A stretch of DNA of 57,006 nucleotides from Bordetella parapertussis. Lineage in GTDB: Bacteria; Pseudomonadota; Gammaproteobacteria; Burkholderiales; SG8-41. Under the pieces are notes generated by a model. It was not told the origin of the DNA and searched no databases. It saw only the letters and a program-made list of their open reading frames with translations. The translations under genes and the position numbers were made by a program. Shown here one piece after another: positions 9,277-54,453 of this stretch; the first letter of the stretch is position 1; each line of letters begins with the position of its first letter. Location of the stretch: positions 1 to 57,006 of the forward strand of contig CAMATZ010000040.1 of the NCBI GenBank assembly GCA_945861275.1. The letters run 5' to 3'.

Positions 9277-11075
9277 GAGGCTGTGCAAAAAGGTCGAAAT
9301 GCAGGTCCACGCGAAGAGCGCATGACGCGTTAACTCATCAGCGACTGATGGGGGTAACGATGGCACGATACAAAGCAGTAGACATGAGTCCCCGGTTCCT
9401 GCCGGTAGTGTTGGAACAGCAACTGATGCCCGGAACGTTCGAGCACGCGCTACACGTACTGATTGATTCGGAGTTTGACCTTTCAGCATTGGCTGCGAAG
9501 TTCAAGAACGACCAGACCGGTGCGCCCGCCTATGACCCGGCGGTGATGCTAAAGATCGTGCTGTTGGCGTATTCACGCGGCATGGTGAGTAGTCGCACGA
9601 TTGAGCGGGCTTGTACGGAGAACGTGCTTTTCATGGCCATCTCGGGGGACACCCAACCGGCGTACACCACAATTGCTGCGTTTGTTCGCGGCTTAAGGGA
9701 TGAAATCGCCGCGATCTTCACCGCAGTCATCCTGATCTGTGATCGTCAGGGTTTGATTGGCCGGCAGATGTTTGCCATCGATGGGGTGAAGCTGCCCAGC
9801 AATGCAAGCAAGGCCAGGAGTGGAACGCATGCCGAACTGGCGCATCAGGCGCAGGCCATTGAGCAGCGGGTGAAGGCCATGCTCAAGGAGCACCGCAGGC
9901 AGGACGCCCTGGGAGATCAACACAAGGTAGGCAAAGACCAGCATCGCGCCGTCGAGTGGGCAAACCATCAGGATCGGGTCAAGGCGCTCAAGGCCGAGGC
10001 AGAGGCGATCCGGCGGTTTTTGCATACCCACCCCAAGCGCCAAGGGGCTGGTTCCGGCAAAGGCCCGGAGCGCAAAAGCAATCTGACCGATACCGACAGT
10101 GCCAAGATGGCCACGGGCAAGGGTGTAATACAAGGCTACACGGGTGCTGCGGCGGTGGATGCGCGCCACCAAATTATTGTGGCCGCCCAGGCGCATGGAT
10201 CAGGGTCCGAGCAAAGCCTGCTGATGCCGATGGTCGAGCAGTCCCAAGCCTTCGCCACGGGCAAGACCGTGATCACCGCCGATGCAGGCTACCATAGCGA
10301 AACGAATCTGCAGCGACTGCATGAGAAGGGCGTAACCGCCCTGATCGCGGACGGGCTGATGAGAAAGCGCGATGCGCGTTTCAAAAACCAAGACAGGTAA
10401 AAAGCAGGACCTGATCCGCTCTACAACAAAGCAGATTGCCTCAAGCCCGTGTCGAGGGGCAAGTTCACGCCGCGTGACTTTCGCTACGATGCTGCGACCC
10501 ATACTTGTATCTGCCCGGCCGGCAAGGCGCTCTACAGCAACGGCAGTCACTGTACGACCAGCGGTAGAACCCATCACAAATTCACGGGTGCCAAACGCGA
10601 CTGTGTGCCGTGTGCACTCAGGCACCAATGCCTGCGAACGCCGGACAAGACGCTAGTGCGCCAGGTGGCGATCTTCCACAAAAACCAGCCTTCCCCGCAC
10701 CAACACACGGAAGCTATGCGCCAACGCATCGATTCTGCCGCAGGTCGGGCTCTGTATGGCAGACGCATTGCCACCGTGGAACCCGTGTTCGGTAACCTGC
10801 GCTACAACAAGCGACTGGATCGCTTTACGCTACGAGGTCAAGGCAAAGTCGATACGCAGTGGAAGCTCTACTGCATGGTACACAACATCGAGAAATTGGC
10901 GCATCACGGGTATGCGCACTAGGTGGGGCGAGAACAGGCGCAAATCCGCCCCGCTATTGCCAATTCCGATCGAATCGCCCAAACTGAAATCCTAAAAAAT
11001 AACCCAATCACTCGAAGCTCTACGATGACAAATCAAGACAAGCCCGTCGTCGGAAATCGGGTTTTTGCACAGCCT
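9277..11075 (+). mobile_element. IS1182-family-like insertion sequence
   Basis: The element is 1.8 kb, bounded by 15-bp perfect inverted repeats: GAGGCTGTGCAAAAA at 9277-9291 and its complement at 11061-11075. It encodes one transposase on the plus strand. Flanking GTT on both sides (9274-9276 and 11076-11078) may be a 3-bp target duplication. The last 16 bp of the element plus GTTAGCC also occur at 128-151, without a transposase. The family is assigned from the transposase sequence. Confidence 0.75.
9348..10922 (+). pseudogene. IS1182-family transposase with one in-frame stop
   Basis: The reading frame is continuous over 525 codons except for a single TAA at codon 351 (10398-10400, in FKNQDR-stop-KAGPDPLYNK). 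DDE residues are all present: Asp in MFAIDGVKLPSNASK (about 144), Asp in VITADAGYHSE (about 308) and Glu in VEPVFGNLRYNKRLDRF (about 480). The CxxC-like zinc region (CPAGKALY... CVPCALRHQCL) is also intact. The original codon was probably TAC or TAT, one base change away. Without readthrough the product lacks its catalytic Glu. A downstream ATG-less frame could not restore activity alone. Confidence 0.82.
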
Positions 11076-11174
11076 CGTTAGCCTACGGGGCAAGTCACGC
11101 GCACCTGATGGTTGAGCATCGAAATCCGACGTGCGAGCGCATGCTACCACCTCCCCGGCGAGTTACTCGGCAAG

Positions 11175-49765: not shown

Positions 49766-52249
49766 TTACTTGCGTGCAAGCGCCTCAAAAGTCACCGCCT
49801 GCGTGGTCTGAAACAGTTCGCTGCGACTGAAATCTTTGGGGAAATCATCGACCATGATCACCCTGCGGCGCAAGGATTTTGCATGCGCGAGGCTGTCGGC
49901 CTCGTGCTGCGTGATCACGCCTTTGGCCAGAGCATCCTGTGCCACCTGATCGCCGAACTCACCGCTGATCGCACCGGCGTGCCGCGCCGCCCGGATTTTG
50001 GCTTCAACGGGTTCAGCCGTTATCACCGCCAGCAAGGCGGCATCGATCACCGTCACCGGATCGTCGGGATCGCGCGGGATGCACATGCCTTGCGTGAGGC
50101 GGTCGCGCGACGGCCCCGGCGTCATCAGCAAGCCCACCACCTGGCTACCCAAAGCATCGGAGGGCGCATCCAATACGCGACCCCACGGGAAGATCGTCAG
50201 GCGCAGCGCCCATCCCACCAGGCGGCTCGGCAAATTTTCAAATAAACCGTAAAACGCTTCCTGCGTGCGATGCAATGCATCCTGCATTGCCCAGTGCAGG
50301 AACGGCAGGTCTTCGGCGGGCTTGCCGTCATCCTCAAAACGTTTCAGCACGGTTGATGCCAGATACAGCTGGCTCAATATGTCGCCCAGCCGCGCCGACA
50401 GCCGCTCGCGGCGCTTGAGCGACCCGCCGAGCACGAACATCGCCACATCCGAGGCCCACGCAAACGCGCTCGAAAGCCGCGTCAGTTGCTGATAGTACTG
50501 CCGCGTGTGCCGGTCTCCAGGCGTCATCACCAAACGCGCGCAGGTCAGTCCCATCCACGCCGCGCGCGCTTTGTTGGAAATCGCAAACGCCGCATGGCCG
50601 AAGAACGCCGCATCGAGTTCGCGCAGCGCCCTGGCATCGTCTTTCTCGTGCGCCGCCTCCATCTCCTTCAGCACAAACGGGTGGCCGCGAATTGCGCCCT
50701 GCCCGTAAATAATCATCGAGCGCGTGAGAATATTCGCGCCTTCGACGGTGATCGCGATCGGTACTTGCTGATAGCTGCGCCCGAGATAATTATTCGGCCC
50801 CATACAGATGCCTTTGCCGCCGTGCACATCCATCGCATCATTCACCACCTGGCGCCCGCGCTCGGTGAGATGGTATTTCACGATCGCGGAAACCACCGAC
50901 GGTTTTTCGCCCAAATCAATCGCACCGGCGGTCATCACCCGCGCGGCATCCATCAAATACAGATTGCCGCCGATGCGCGCCATCGCTTCTTCAACCCCTT
51001 CGAAACGCCCGATGGAAATATTGAATTGCGTGCGCACGCGGCCATAACCACCGGTGGTGCGCGCGGCCAGCTTGGACATGCCCACGGAATTGGCCGGCAA
51101 CGAAATCGAGCGCCCCGCCGCAAGGCAATTCATCAGCATCTTCCAGCCCTGACCCACGTACTCGACGCCACCGATCACGCAATCCATCGGCACAAAAACA
51201 TCCTTGCCCCAGTTGGGTCCATTCATGAACGCGCCGTTCAGCGGAAAATGCCGGCGCCCGATATTCACACCCACTGTGTCCGTCGGAATAATGCCCAGCG
51301 TGATGCCGCGATCCACAGTCGGGCCGAGTATGTGATCGGGGTCGTACAGTCTGAAAGCAAGGCCCAGCAGTGTCGCTATCGGCCCCAGCGTGATGTAGCG
51401 TTTCTCCCACGTGAGACGTATGCCCAGCACATCCGTCCTGCCATGCCACTCGCCTTTGCATACCACGCCGAAGTCCGGAATGCCGCCTGCATCAGAACCC
51501 GCTTCCGGACTGGTCAGGGCGAAACACGGCATTTCCAGACCCTTGGCGAGACGCGGCAGATAGTAATTTTTTTGCGCCTCGGTGCCGTAGTGCAACAGGA
51601 GTTCCGCCGGGCCCAGCGAGTTGGGCACCATCACCGACACCGCCGCGGTGCCGCTGCGCGTGGTGAGCTTGACGATCACCGCCGAATGCATCAGCGCCGA
51701 GAAACCCTTGCCACCGAATGCCTTGGGAATAATCATGCCGAGAAATCCCTGATCCTTGATGTACTGCCATGCGTGCGGCGGCAGATCATGCAGATCATTG
51801 GTGATTTCCCATTCATTGAGCATCTCGCACAGCGCTTCAACCGGACCGTCGAGAAAGGCCTGCTCTTCCGCGCTCAGGCTGGGCTTGGGATAGGCGTGAA
51901 GTTTTTTCCAATCCGGGTTGCCGCTGAACAGCTCGCCATCCCACCACACGGTGCCGGCATCCAGCGCTTCTTTTTCGGTAGTCGACATCTGCGGCAAAAT
52001 TTTGCGGAACAGTTCGAGCAACGGCGCGCCCAGCAGCGTGCGGCGTATTGGGCCGGGATTAAGCACCAGCGCAAGGATCGTAAAAATAATCCACGCCAGC
52101 GCTAACACCACCGGCGGTGCGCAGCCGGAGTAACCCAGAGCCAGCAGTCCCGCCGCCGCGGTGACGGTCCACAGCCACGCCGGCGCACGATGGTAGGCGA
52201 ATCCCCAAACAATGGCGCCCACACTACCGATTGCGATCAATGTAACCAT
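49766..52249 (-). CDS. fadE: Membrane-anchored long-chain acyl-CoA dehydrogenase (FadE)
   Basis: An 827-residue FadE-type acyl-CoA dehydrogenase. The N-terminus has two or three hydrophobic segments (VTLIAIGSVGAIVWGFAY and CAPPVVLALAWIIFTILALVLN, within about 1-70). The catalytic core (about 115-520) includes CFALTSPEAGSDAGGIPDFG for FAD contact and GGKGICMGPNNYLGR near the C-terminal half, followed by a FadE-specific C-terminal domain. It introduces the alpha-beta double bond and passes electrons to ETF. ATG 52249 gives the hydrophobic N-terminus typical of FadE. Confidence 0.93.
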   Translation of the reverse strand: MVTLIAIGSVGAIVWGFAYHRAPAWLWTVTAAAGLLALGYSGCAPPVVLALAWIIFTILALVLNPGPIRRTLLGAPLLELFRKILPQMSTTEKEALDAGTVWWDGELFSGNPDWKKLHAYPKPSLSAEEQAFLDGPVEALCEMLNEWEITNDLHDLPPHAWQYIKDQGFLGMIIPKAFGGKGFSALMHSAVIVKLTTRSGTAAVSVMVPNSLGPAELLLHYGTEAQKNYYLPRLAKGLEMPCFALTSPEAGSDAGGIPDFGVVCKGEWHGRTDVLGIRLTWEKRYITLGPIATLLGLAFRLYDPDHILGPTVDRGITLGIIPTDTVGVNIGRRHFPLNGAFMNGPNWGKDVFVPMDCVIGGVEYVGQGWKMLMNCLAAGRSISLPANSVGMSKLAARTTGGYGRVRTQFNISIGRFEGVEEAMARIGGNLYLMDAARVMTAGAIDLGEKPSVVSAIVKYHLTERGRQVVNDAMDVHGGKGICMGPNNYLGRSYQQVPIAITVEGANILTRSMIIYGQGAIRGHPFVLKEMEAAHEKDDARALRELDAAFFGHAAFAISNKARAAWMGLTCARLVMTPGDRHTRQYYQQLTRLSSAFAWASDVAMFVLGGSLKRRERLSARLGDILSQLYLASTVLKRFEDDGKPAEDLPFLHWAMQDALHRTQEAFYGLFENLPSRLVGWALRLTIFPWGRVLDAPSDALGSQVVGLLMTPGPSRDRLTQGMCIPRDPDDPVTVIDAALLAVITAEPVEAKIRAARHAGAISGEFGDQVAQDALAKGVITQHEADSLAHAKSLRRRVIMVDDFPKDFSRSELFQTTQAVTFEALARK

Positions 52250-52365
52250 GACGTGTCTTCCCCGATGAACATTGGGCGCATTATTCCACAATGAATCGGC
52301 ATACCGCGCCTGATCTTTGCGCAGTCAGCAGATATCGTCGCGCGCATCGCCTATGGCCTCACTTA

Positions 52366-52631
52366 GAGTGCCTAACATAATGAAACCCGTGCGTCATTGT
52401 GTCCAAAATCGGCGGTGGCGCGAAGGACTCGAAAGCGCATCTCGCGAATATGTGCGACGAGTCCGACAAAGCCAGCGCCGATTTTGGACACAACCCGTAG
52501 GGCTGGCGCGAGTTTTGCCTCAGAGCTTTGTCGCACGGCTTGCTAATATTCGCGATATTGGCTGCGCCGCGCTTCGCGCCCTGAAGCAAAATCGTGCCAG
52601 CGCCGCACGGGTTTCATTATGTTAGGCACTC
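52366..52631. mobile_element. MITE-like element with 33-bp perfect inverted ends
   Basis: The outer arms 52361-52393 and 52604-52636 are perfect 33-bp inverted repeats (ACTTAGAGTGCCTAACATAA at the left end). Taking TA (52364-52365, 52632-52633) as target duplication, the element proper is 266 bp. Inside are two further hairpins: arms 52397-52414 / 52476-52493 (18 bp perfect) and 52502-52518 / 52586-52601 (imperfect). There is no coding capacity. The flanks rejoin to the palindrome ACTTAAGT, and TA duplication is typical of IS630/Tc1-type transposition. It lies in the 420-bp gap upstream of fadE and may affect its expression. Confidence 0.75.
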
Positions 52632-52668
52632 TAAGTCACTGGACGGAAAGAATAAGCAGGCTCTGCGA

Positions 52669-54453
52669 TTAAAACTGCGATTCCGCCAGCGCCATCACAC
52701 TGTCTGCGCCGCTGATTACGGTGTGCCTGAAAGCAGCCGCCTGCGGCAATAGGTGTTCGCAGTAAAACCGCGCCGTGGCGAGTTTTGCGTCATAGAACGC
52801 AGTGTCCGCAGCGGGTTGGCCACGCTTGCGCTGCGCTACCTGCGCTGCGCGCACCATCATCCAGCCGCCACCGACGGTGCCGAACAACTTGAGATACGGC
52901 ACGGCGACTGCGTATACCGCGTTGGGATTTTGCGGGAACGTTGCGACGATCCAGCGCGTGGCTTCATCCAGTGCGTCGATGGCGCCGACGAATGATTTCC
53001 CGATGGCGGACAATTCACCTGCCGTAAGCGCCGTGACCGTTTGGCGCATTTGCGCAATCAGCGCCAGCGCCGTGGCACCTTTTTCATAACCCACCTTGCG
53101 CCCCACCAGGTCATTGGCCTGGATGCCGGTGGTACCTTCGTAAATCGTGGTGATGCGCGCATCACGCAGATACTGCGCCGCCCCGGTTTCTTCGACATAA
53201 CCCATGCCGCCGTGTATCTGCACGCCGGTAGAGGCGATTTCCACACACTGTTCGGTACACCACGCCTTTACCACCGGGATCAGCAAATCAGTCAGCGCCT
53301 GGTTGCGCCGCTGCTCGGTGGCATCGAGGTGGCGCTTGGCCTTGTCCAGCGCCGCTGCGGCGAAATACGCCAGCGCGCGCATGGCTTCAATCTGCGATTT
53401 CATGCTCATCAGCATACGCCGCACATCCGGATGATGAATGAGGGTCACGCGATCACCGCTGCGCTGGCCGACCGCGCGCCCCTGCACACGCGTCTTCGCG
53501 TGCTCGAGCGCGTGCTGATAGGCGCGCTCGGCCACCGCCACGCCTTCAAGCCCCACCGCGAGGCGCGCGTGGTTCATCATGGTGAACATGTACTCCAACC
53601 CGCGATTGGGTTCGCCGACCAGATAACCCGTAGCCCCGCCGCCATCGCCATACTGCATCACGCAGGTGGGACTGGCGTGGATGCCGAGCTTGTGTTCGAT
53701 GGACACGCATTTCACATCGTTGCGCGTGCCGGGACTGCCATCGGTGTTGAGCTGGAACTTGGGCACGATGAACAGCGAAATGCCCTTCACGCCTTCGGGC
53801 GCGTCAGGCAGGCGTGCCAGCACCAGATGCACGATGTTCTGGGTCATATCGTGCTCACCCCAGGTAATGAATATCTTGGTGCCGCTGATTTTGTAGTGGT
53901 CGCCGTTGGGCACAGCCTTGGCGCGCACTGCGGCCAGATCCGAGCCCGCCTGCGGCTCGGTGAGGTTCATGGTGCCGCTCCACTCGCCCGAGGTCAGCTT
54001 CGGCGCATAACGCTGCAACTGCCCGGGGGAAGCGTGATGTTGCAACGCCTCCAGCACACCGGAGGTCAACATCGGGCACAGACAAAACGCCATGTTGCTG
54101 CTGTTCCACATCTCCTGTACCGGATTGGAGACGATATGCGGCAACCCCTGGCCGCCGTATTCGGTCATGCCGCCAAGGCCGTTCCAGCCCGCTGCGGTGA
54201 ATTGCTGATACGCCGCCTTAAAACCGGACGGCGACGTCACCACGCCATCGGCCAGCCGCGCGCCTTCGGTGTCGCCCACGCGATTGAGCGGCGCCAACAC
54301 CTCCTGCGCGAATTTCGCTGCCTCGCCCAGCACGGCTTGCACCAAATCCGCGTTGACTTCCTCGCAGCCGGGCAATCGGGCCACCTCATCCAGCCCGGCC
54401 AGCTCGTTAATAACGAACAGCATGTCCTTGAGCGGCGCAATATATGACGACAT
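52669..54453 (-). CDS. Acyl-CoA dehydrogenase (long C-terminal type)
   Basis: A 594-residue acyl-CoA dehydrogenase of the group with an extra N-terminal and C-terminal extension. FAD and substrate motifs include MNLTEPQAGSDLAAVRAKA (about 157-175), KIFITWGEHDMTQNIVHLVLARL (about 193-215) and the C-terminal QCVEIASTGVQIHGGMGYVEETGAAQYLRDARITTIYEGTTGIQAND (about 405-451), with the catalytic Glu in IYEGTTG. It oxidises acyl-CoA with ETF as acceptor. Same strand as FadE, separated by the MITE-like element. Divergent from the CMD gene. Confidence 0.93.
   Translation of the reverse strand: MSSYIAPLKDMLFVINELAGLDEVARLPGCEEVNADLVQAVLGEAAKFAQEVLAPLNRVGDTEGARLADGVVTSPSGFKAAYQQFTAAGWNGLGGMTEYGGQGLPHIVSNPVQEMWNSSNMAFCLCPMLTSGVLEALQHHASPGQLQRYAPKLTSGEWSGTMNLTEPQAGSDLAAVRAKAVPNGDHYKISGTKIFITWGEHDMTQNIVHLVLARLPDAPEGVKGISLFIVPKFQLNTDGSPGTRNDVKCVSIEHKLGIHASPTCVMQYGDGGGATGYLVGEPNRGLEYMFTMMNHARLAVGLEGVAVAERAYQHALEHAKTRVQGRAVGQRSGDRVTLIHHPDVRRMLMSMKSQIEAMRALAYFAAAALDKAKRHLDATEQRRNQALTDLLIPVVKAWCTEQCVEIASTGVQIHGGMGYVEETGAAQYLRDARITTIYEGTTGIQANDLVGRKVGYEKGATALALIAQMRQTVTALTAGELSAIGKSFVGAIDALDEATRWIVATFPQNPNAVYAVAVPYLKLFGTVGGGWMMVRAAQVAQRKRGQPAADTAFYDAKLATARFYCEHLLPQAAAFRHTVISGADSVMALAESQF

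Follow-up and report, generated by a model that had tools for sequence, protein, structure and literature searches.

A 266-bp non-autonomous transposon, probably mobilized by IS5-type transposases, with a structured core that occurs between several kinds of transposon end

Insertion sequences (ISs) of the IS1031 group of IS5 duplicate TNA. Tourist/PIF-Harbinger elements, which are kin to IS5, target TWA, and we know of none with an order-wide structured core on which the ends have been swapped. Internal deletion of an IS is a common, not a required, origin for the body of a MITE. The element described here resembles IS5-family ISs with a 3-bp TWA duplication in its terminal repeats and target duplication, and complete ISs of 902 and 932 bp match it, but it carries no transposase and has only the ends in common with them; its duplication and that of its partner ISs may be comparable to that of the IS1031 group. 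In logic it recalls SINEs, with a structured non-coding body paired with the ends of different autonomous partners, but its ends are those of a DNA transposon and it does not depend on reverse transcription.

Bacterial MITEs are thought to derive mainly from insertion sequences (PMC10969869, in its accessible part). NEMIS/Correia, RUP and ERIC, as described in the accessible parts of PMC2229807 and PMC10969869, share with our element a short, mostly non-coding sequence, terminal repeats, target duplication, a transcript predicted to fold and mostly intergenic placement; unlike them, it has as its body an inverted pair of hairpins that is conserved across the order and joined to 6–15 groups of ends. 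CIR elements of Caulobacter and Brucella have a comparable RNA model, of two long arms and a linker, that is kept across genera, but the accessible part of PMC2229807 reports no terminal inverted repeats for them. Tourist/PIF-Harbinger MITEs also show a 3-bp duplication and mobilization in trans (PMC2213677 and PMC2836001, in the parts available) but live in eukaryotic hosts. A further report, available in part, sets a MITE beside the IS982-family element ISCca4 (PMC9769881), and the accessible text of PMC7031236 holds nothing on IS5 target duplications. In the literature searched, which lies mostly outside subscription journals, we found no earlier description of the element or of a structured core common to different IS ends.

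The element lies in a stretch of 57,006 nucleotides (the window). We are confident, short of certainty, that it is a 266-bp non-autonomous transposon, mobilized by an IS5-type transposase and carrying a portable structured core that also occurs with the ends of several transposases. Its interior owes nothing visible to the IS that supplies its ends, and conservation lies in this interior while the ends change.

The locus, its copies and their target site

The host genome (G000) is a draft of 5.5 Mb in 95 contigs, and the window is its contig C40. As the earlier note had it, the element stands between two acyl-CoA dehydrogenase genes; Pfam matches on both sides confirm this, with both genes on the minus strand. 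The features are as follows.

52366–52631, plus strand: element proper (GAG...CTC), 266 bp; boundaries set by 43 copies, 24 of which are exactly 266 bp long
52361–52365, no strand: left target-site flank ACTTA, in which TTA is the left copy of the 3-bp duplication (copy comparison)
52632–52636, no strand: right target-site flank TAAGT, in which TAA is one base off TTA (copy comparison)
52366–52391, plus strand: left terminal inverted repeat, end type GAGYNCCTAACATAATGAAAC (inverted-repeat search); agrees at 15–16 of the outer 18 bases with the ends of 902-bp IS5-family ISs from a related genus
52606–52631, minus strand: right terminal inverted repeat (inverted-repeat search, 43-copy boundaries, BLAST against ISs)
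52393–52501, plus strand: hairpin 1 plus flank, the ~110-nt structured core unit (covariance model R1; 105.7 bits, E = 1.1e-22; covariation)
52502–52601, plus strand: hairpin 2, a diverged inverted copy of hairpin 1 (hairpin 1 against reverse complement of hairpin 2, z = 4.9 in the window copy)
49766–52291, minus strand: fadE-type acyl-CoA dehydrogenase (ACDH_C; Pfam PF09317, 7e-113), downstream; start codon uncertain
52669–54453, minus strand: second acyl-CoA dehydrogenase gene (Pfam PF12806, PF00441), with its stop 37 bp from the element

Perfectly complementary arms of 33 nt each (52361–52393 and 52604–52636, 100%) enclose two hairpins, one of which contains an inner inverted repeat of 23 nt (52397–52419/52471–52493, 96%) that folds with a run of 18 uninterrupted pairs. 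The inverted-repeat search and the fold bear out what the earlier note described, perfect 18-bp arms included. Folded as RNA, the 276 nt reach −175.2 kcal/mol, far below shuffled versions (−93.2 ± 4.3 kcal/mol; z = −19; 0 of 200 that low). Target and boundaries were analysed on the 43 copies with readable ends, which place the outer five bases of each side (ACTTA/TAAGT) in target DNA, outside the element.

Five near-full copies (87–100% identity) are present in the window's genome, and 29 of the 60 genomes searched gave matches: the host's own, 9 of 13 from the same genus, 16 of 22 from other genera of the family and, weakly, 3 of 24 from other families (counted from the table). A 27-base inner motif was found in 12 named contigs, 11 from Betaproteobacteria or Burkholderiales and one from a Bordetella MAG. 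Mean identity over 32 aligned copies was 75%. The proposal of a MITE-like mobile element with inverted ends is supported by these copies, by the target duplications and by sites unoccupied at other copies. The contrary case raised with it, a single copy kept in the same place in distant relatives, was not seen: the element is multicopy, and the gap beside fadE differs in the relatives G004 and G005.

Flanking triplets were identical in 22 of the 43 copies (13 TAA/TAA, 9 TTA/TTA) against a shuffled mean of 11.8 (p = 5e-5), with a pyrimidine at position −4 in 36 and a purine at position +4 in 36. We therefore conclude that the target is YTWAR, with a 3-bp TWA (TAA/TTA) duplication, and not the TA duplication first proposed. 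The window copy has TTA on its left and TAA on its right, an imperfect duplication found in 3 of the 43 copies (this one included), and the copy nearest to it in G000 shares 93.6% identity with it, so that the recent movement suggested for this copy is unsupported.

Copies are mostly intergenic and often near gene ends according to crude gene calls, which gave no orientation bias relative to the genes on either side: of the 43 copies, 19 stand in tandem contexts, 10 of them sense and 9 antisense. Some copies take a 413-bp form through an extra module of about 147 bp (L062:2112–2260, with further places in G015, G016 and G024), which is a separate high-copy repeat. In three genomes this module matched 24, 25 and 28 times, and locally it forms tandem arrays with a period of about 106 bp. 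Palindromes of 46–52 bp consist of the two ends alone, with no body (L008, L148–L156 and also places in G202). TTA stands on both sides of 4 of the 10 listed short ones (46–51 bp). We initially read them as separate elements and dropped this reading, as their junctions look by eye like deletions of the body at short repeats; they probably arose from the full element by deletion.

For five copies (L068, L106, L058, L067 and L060) the two flanks were joined and searched for in 14 genomes of the genus. The joined flanks of L068, from G013, aligned through the junction in relatives, of which three (L191, L192 and L198) carry a single TAA, one (L197) has CAA and one (L199, in G004) has neither element nor triplet. 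Diverged alignments crossed the junction without the element for L106 in G004 (71%) and L058 in G006 (70%); for L067 and L060, no match in these genomes spanned the junction. The empty-site comparison proposed in the earlier note thus succeeded for other copies and failed at the window locus, where the predicted site ACTTAAGT was not found and the nearest relatives hold other DNA in the gap: in G004 and G005, whose fadE side is 95% and 92% identical to that of the window, unrelated DNA stands in place of the element. This intergenic gap is a variable spot (L139:1066–1694, L138:1202–2482), with a toxin–antitoxin-like gene pair in G005 and a helicase-like fragment in G004 (named by eye).

Target duplications and unoccupied sites tell against a regulatory RNA or terminator that benefits the host and is mobile in appearance only. 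The element is missing from the same gap in G004 and G005, has no Rfam match and shows no orientation preference. Its strong fold and its mostly intergenic position, often near gene ends, are what such an RNA would have; we regard this explanation as improbable.

Coding capacity was examined in 26 of the 32 aligned copies, leaving out six with rearranged parts. In many of these copies, each strand has one frame that runs nearly its whole length without a stop (median longest stretch 84 and 85 codons), which speaks for a coding element. The same two frames hold stops in other copies, where the longest stretch falls to as little as 43 and 44 codons, and variation in them does not consistently peak at any one codon position. 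Because stops occur and no codon position stands out, we read the element as non-coding and judge a coding role unlikely. At a threshold of 1e-3, the 102-amino-acid frame of the window copy matches no Pfam family, which, with the stops in other copies, agrees with the noted absence of a coding frame of its own. The window copy had no Rfam match even at E = 1, and nine other element loci gave, at gathering score, only a glycine riboswitch outside the element; we dropped a known RNA family on this basis. Cargo of plasmids or phages was dropped as an explanation: the window copy had no match among plasmids, the G247 copy none among plasmids or phages and the 27-mer none in viral contigs. Integron attC sites have RYYYAAC/GTTRRRY core sites, an imperfect palindrome and a cassette context. 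GCCTAAC/GTTAGGC is present in one end type of the core elements and is missing from the other end types read; we rejected an attC site, since attC-like core sites are confined to that end type and the copies show target duplications.

IS5-family partners and the ends they share

A transposase piece from G013 (P0001) matches NF033580 (transpos_IS5_3, 1.4e-35) and PF01609, and an N-terminal piece (P0002) matches PF13340. Partner ISs were found only via searches for IS5-family transposases. Relatives of P0001 at E = 1e-20 occur in 9 of 74 genomes of the host's family; G000 has none at this threshold, in a draft assembly of the kind that can lose repeats. Within the host's bacterial family, five of ten P0001-related loci hold a complete IS that ends in GAGCSCCTAACAAAATGA or GAGYGCATTTCAAAATGA: 932 bp long with ATTTCA-type ends (L182, L183) or 902 bp long with CCTAACA-type ends (L186, L187, L190). 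Flanking triplets are identical in four of the five. The ten IS ends match the best element copy at 16–17 of the outer 18 bases, and the two ends of a split IS copy in G013 at 15 and 16. Both sub-types of IS end also occur on the element: two copies in the window's genome (L106, L108) have ATTTCA ends on a body 91–92% identical to that of a CCTAACA-ended copy (L109). A third end type, GGGCCTGTTAACA, occurs on further core copies in G000 (L311–L314) and resembles the ends of IS5-family elements of 820 and 823 bp in G015 and G013 (14–16 of 18 bases at each end), which are flanked by CTA on the left and TAG or TAA on the right.

Because these ends are common to transposase-carrying insertion sequences, the element was probably moved in trans by an IS5-type transposase, as far as sequence comparison can tell; the transposase acting in trans that the earlier note supposed is to this extent probable. 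The autonomous IS with the same ends that it looked for was found in the form of the 902- and 932-bp IS5-family ISs, which share the outer 18–20 bases, but not for the window's exact ends, of which no pair lay 1–3 kb apart at up to 2 mismatches among the matches listed for six genomes. In no genome examined did we find both an autonomous IS and a full-length element that agree in end type.

An IS630/Tc1-mariner MITE with TA duplication, the origin first suggested, is almost certainly wrong. TA is part of both flanks and several known bacterial MITEs end in TA (PMC2229807, in its accessible part), but the flanks are 3-bp TWA duplications in YTWAR, the ISs with matching ends encode IS5-family transposases, and another end type, that of the G202 elements, is flanked by the 4-bp CTAG/CTGG.

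We compared three copies of the element with seven ISs by BLAST. Matches ran end to end over the outer 18–20 bases of the same end type, and interiors gave only 16–22-base matches (E = 0.19–0.67). Only the ends match, and the body is therefore not a remnant of these ISs; we reject its origin by internal deletion from them. The core model R1 had no match in five IS loci. Set beside a MITE mobilized by an IS5-family transposase, the element has the matching end repeats and the TWA duplication and is short, multicopy and devoid of transposase; its body does not derive from these ISs by internal deletion.

A core with different ends across the order

At the DNA level, 10 of the 399 genomes searched in the order gave a match, three of them outside the host's family. 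In one of these three, G202, the hairpin 1 unit lies in elements of 267–268 bp whose ends, GAGCCTGTCGGACTTAG, are unrelated, and an identical CTAG or CTGG stands on both sides in 5 of 5 full copies. We built a covariance model of the core unit (R1) on 25 sequences, including ones from G153 and G202. At 1e-6 it matched 94 of the 399 genomes and 50 of 158 genera, with at most nine places scored per genome; the matches listed span 32 families, and ends were inspected in 17. In G247, a 5.5-Mb genome in a single contig (G247:C1), at least nine core copies have an identical R1 score, perhaps from a recent burst, and this genome's bearer may be well suited as a host for experiments.

R1 matches were checked independently by their enclosing inverted repeats. 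Such a repeat was found around 55 of 63 core copies inspected, from 17 families; the other eight had none within the search bounds, several because the stretch ends there. In 50 of the 55 the enclosed element is 259–296 bp long, with the core 22–35 nt from the left terminus, lengths that are bounded by a search reaching up to 60 nt to the left and 80–220 nt to the right of the core. Grouped at 70% similarity, the terminal repeats form 6 groups, and at 78% they form 15, a number that varies with the threshold; among shuffled pairs, 99.9% stay at or below 67%. Some copies from different families have 78–83% of the core in common but no recognizable end (G202 against G153 and G109; G134 against G116), and in four pairs the ends are similar and the cores unlike; of the 19 pairs listed in this comparison, 6 include L293, for which the boundary is misplaced. 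Mapped onto the core tree, the 6 end groups require 12 changes, against a possible minimum of 5 and a shuffled value of 23.5, and for three of the groups the well-supported branches by themselves demand at least 3, 3 and 2 changes. Ends are therefore partly inherited and repeatedly replaced. A structured core thus persists while its transposon ends are swapped.

Covariation in the hairpin pair and its proposed role

Hairpin 1 is homologous to the reverse complement of hairpin 2 (z = 4.9–7.8 over 8 copies), and an antisense R1 match lies about 100 nt from hairpin 1 in the sister copy L281 and in others. The body is therefore an inverted dimer of one hairpin unit of about 110 nt. An inverted hairpin dimer repeated in intergenic DNA resembles the plan of REPINs, and a REPIN-like element would be moved by a RAYT/Y1 transposase on single-stranded DNA. 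The terminal repeats of 26–33 bp match the ends of IS5-family ISs and the duplications are of 3 bp, which makes such an element very improbable here.

The fold covaries. Over 32 aligned copies, 57 of 102 pairs were changed on both sides (shuffled 31.3 ± 2.7) and the covariation score was 0.284 (shuffled 0.106; slid versions 0.045–0.060), in a structure voted from the copies' own folds after 8 doubtful pairs (A1) were removed by hand. RNAalifold's own structure had double changes in 49 of 84 pairs. Order-wide, in 48 cores, 36 of 40 pairs were doubly changed (shuffled 26.8), with a score of 0.619 against 0.178, after 2 doubtful pairs (A3) were left out by hand; all scored structures were derived from the very sequences on which covariation was counted. 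In the host's family, with five rows of rearranged hairpin 2 left out for entropy and G-T counts, the most conserved part of hairpin 1 is its non-complementary internal loop (entropy 0.11, against 0.72 in the stem); order-wide this loop is far less uniform.

Mispairs in hairpin 1 are biased. In the host's family, G-T outnumbers A-C by 74 to 20 cells, by 14 to 5 columns (p = 0.06) and, counted by genus and column, by 38 to 12 (p = 0.0003). Order-wide the counts are 97 to 16 cells, one column supplying 28 of the 97, and 21 to 8 columns (p = 0.024). The excess is absent from hairpin 2 (48 to 50, five rearranged rows left out) and from the outer stem (15 to 19). Neither this absence nor the weight of the single column nor the lack of orientation bias favours a role in mRNA.

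Template switching in replication can yield compensatory changes in palindromes (PMC8794818, in its accessible part), and we regard it as a serious rival for part of the covariation. Taken further, it would make the fold a by-product of switching between arms and the body an inert spacer between IS5 ends. The same source describes switching as able to create and preserve hairpins; the two end sub-types differ on both arms together, which suggests copying of one arm onto the other, and derivatives of 46–51 bp exist without a body, 4 of the 10 listed having TTA on both sides. The conserved loop of hairpin 1 in the host's family is non-complementary, even if less uniform order-wide, and the G-T excess of hairpin 1 is strand-specific. 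An inert spacer also need not keep a length that is, within the search bounds, mostly 259–296 bp over 17 families and several end types. We give an inert body a minor share of the probability.

Under the reading that we prefer, a mobile element with a portable structured core, an IS5-type transposase would bind ends common to IS and element (GAGYNCCTAACA/GAGCGCATTTCA types) and insert the element with a 3-bp stagger. In G000, where no such IS was found, the element would now be an orphan. The body would be a structured passenger whose hairpin fold is maintained through compensatory changes and that acquires new transposase ends. We infer that the core functions as a single strand, most likely as RNA through read-through in host transcripts, where it might limit the damage of insertion or alter mRNA decay; less probably, it would serve transposition or replication as a hairpin of single-stranded DNA. 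A bolder version, for which we judge the case to fall a little short of evenly balanced, would make it the equivalent in bacteria of SINEs: a selfish, non-coding structured core of ancient origin, an inverted dimer of the ~110-nt hairpin, that persists throughout the order by taking on, again and again, the terminal repeats of any IS5-like transposase available. The core would be selected as RNA or single-stranded DNA and would be what is inherited, with its ends replaceable. If confirmed, this would make it testable whether the fold aids the element through host tolerance, mRNA effects or transposition, and how a body gains new transposase ends, and would offer a covariance model for finding more such elements.

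Elsewhere in the window, positions 9277–11076 hold an insertion sequence of 1800 bp with terminal repeats GAGGCTGTGCAAAAA...TTTTTGCACAGCCTC, whose DDE_Tnp_1 transposase frame is broken by one TAA.
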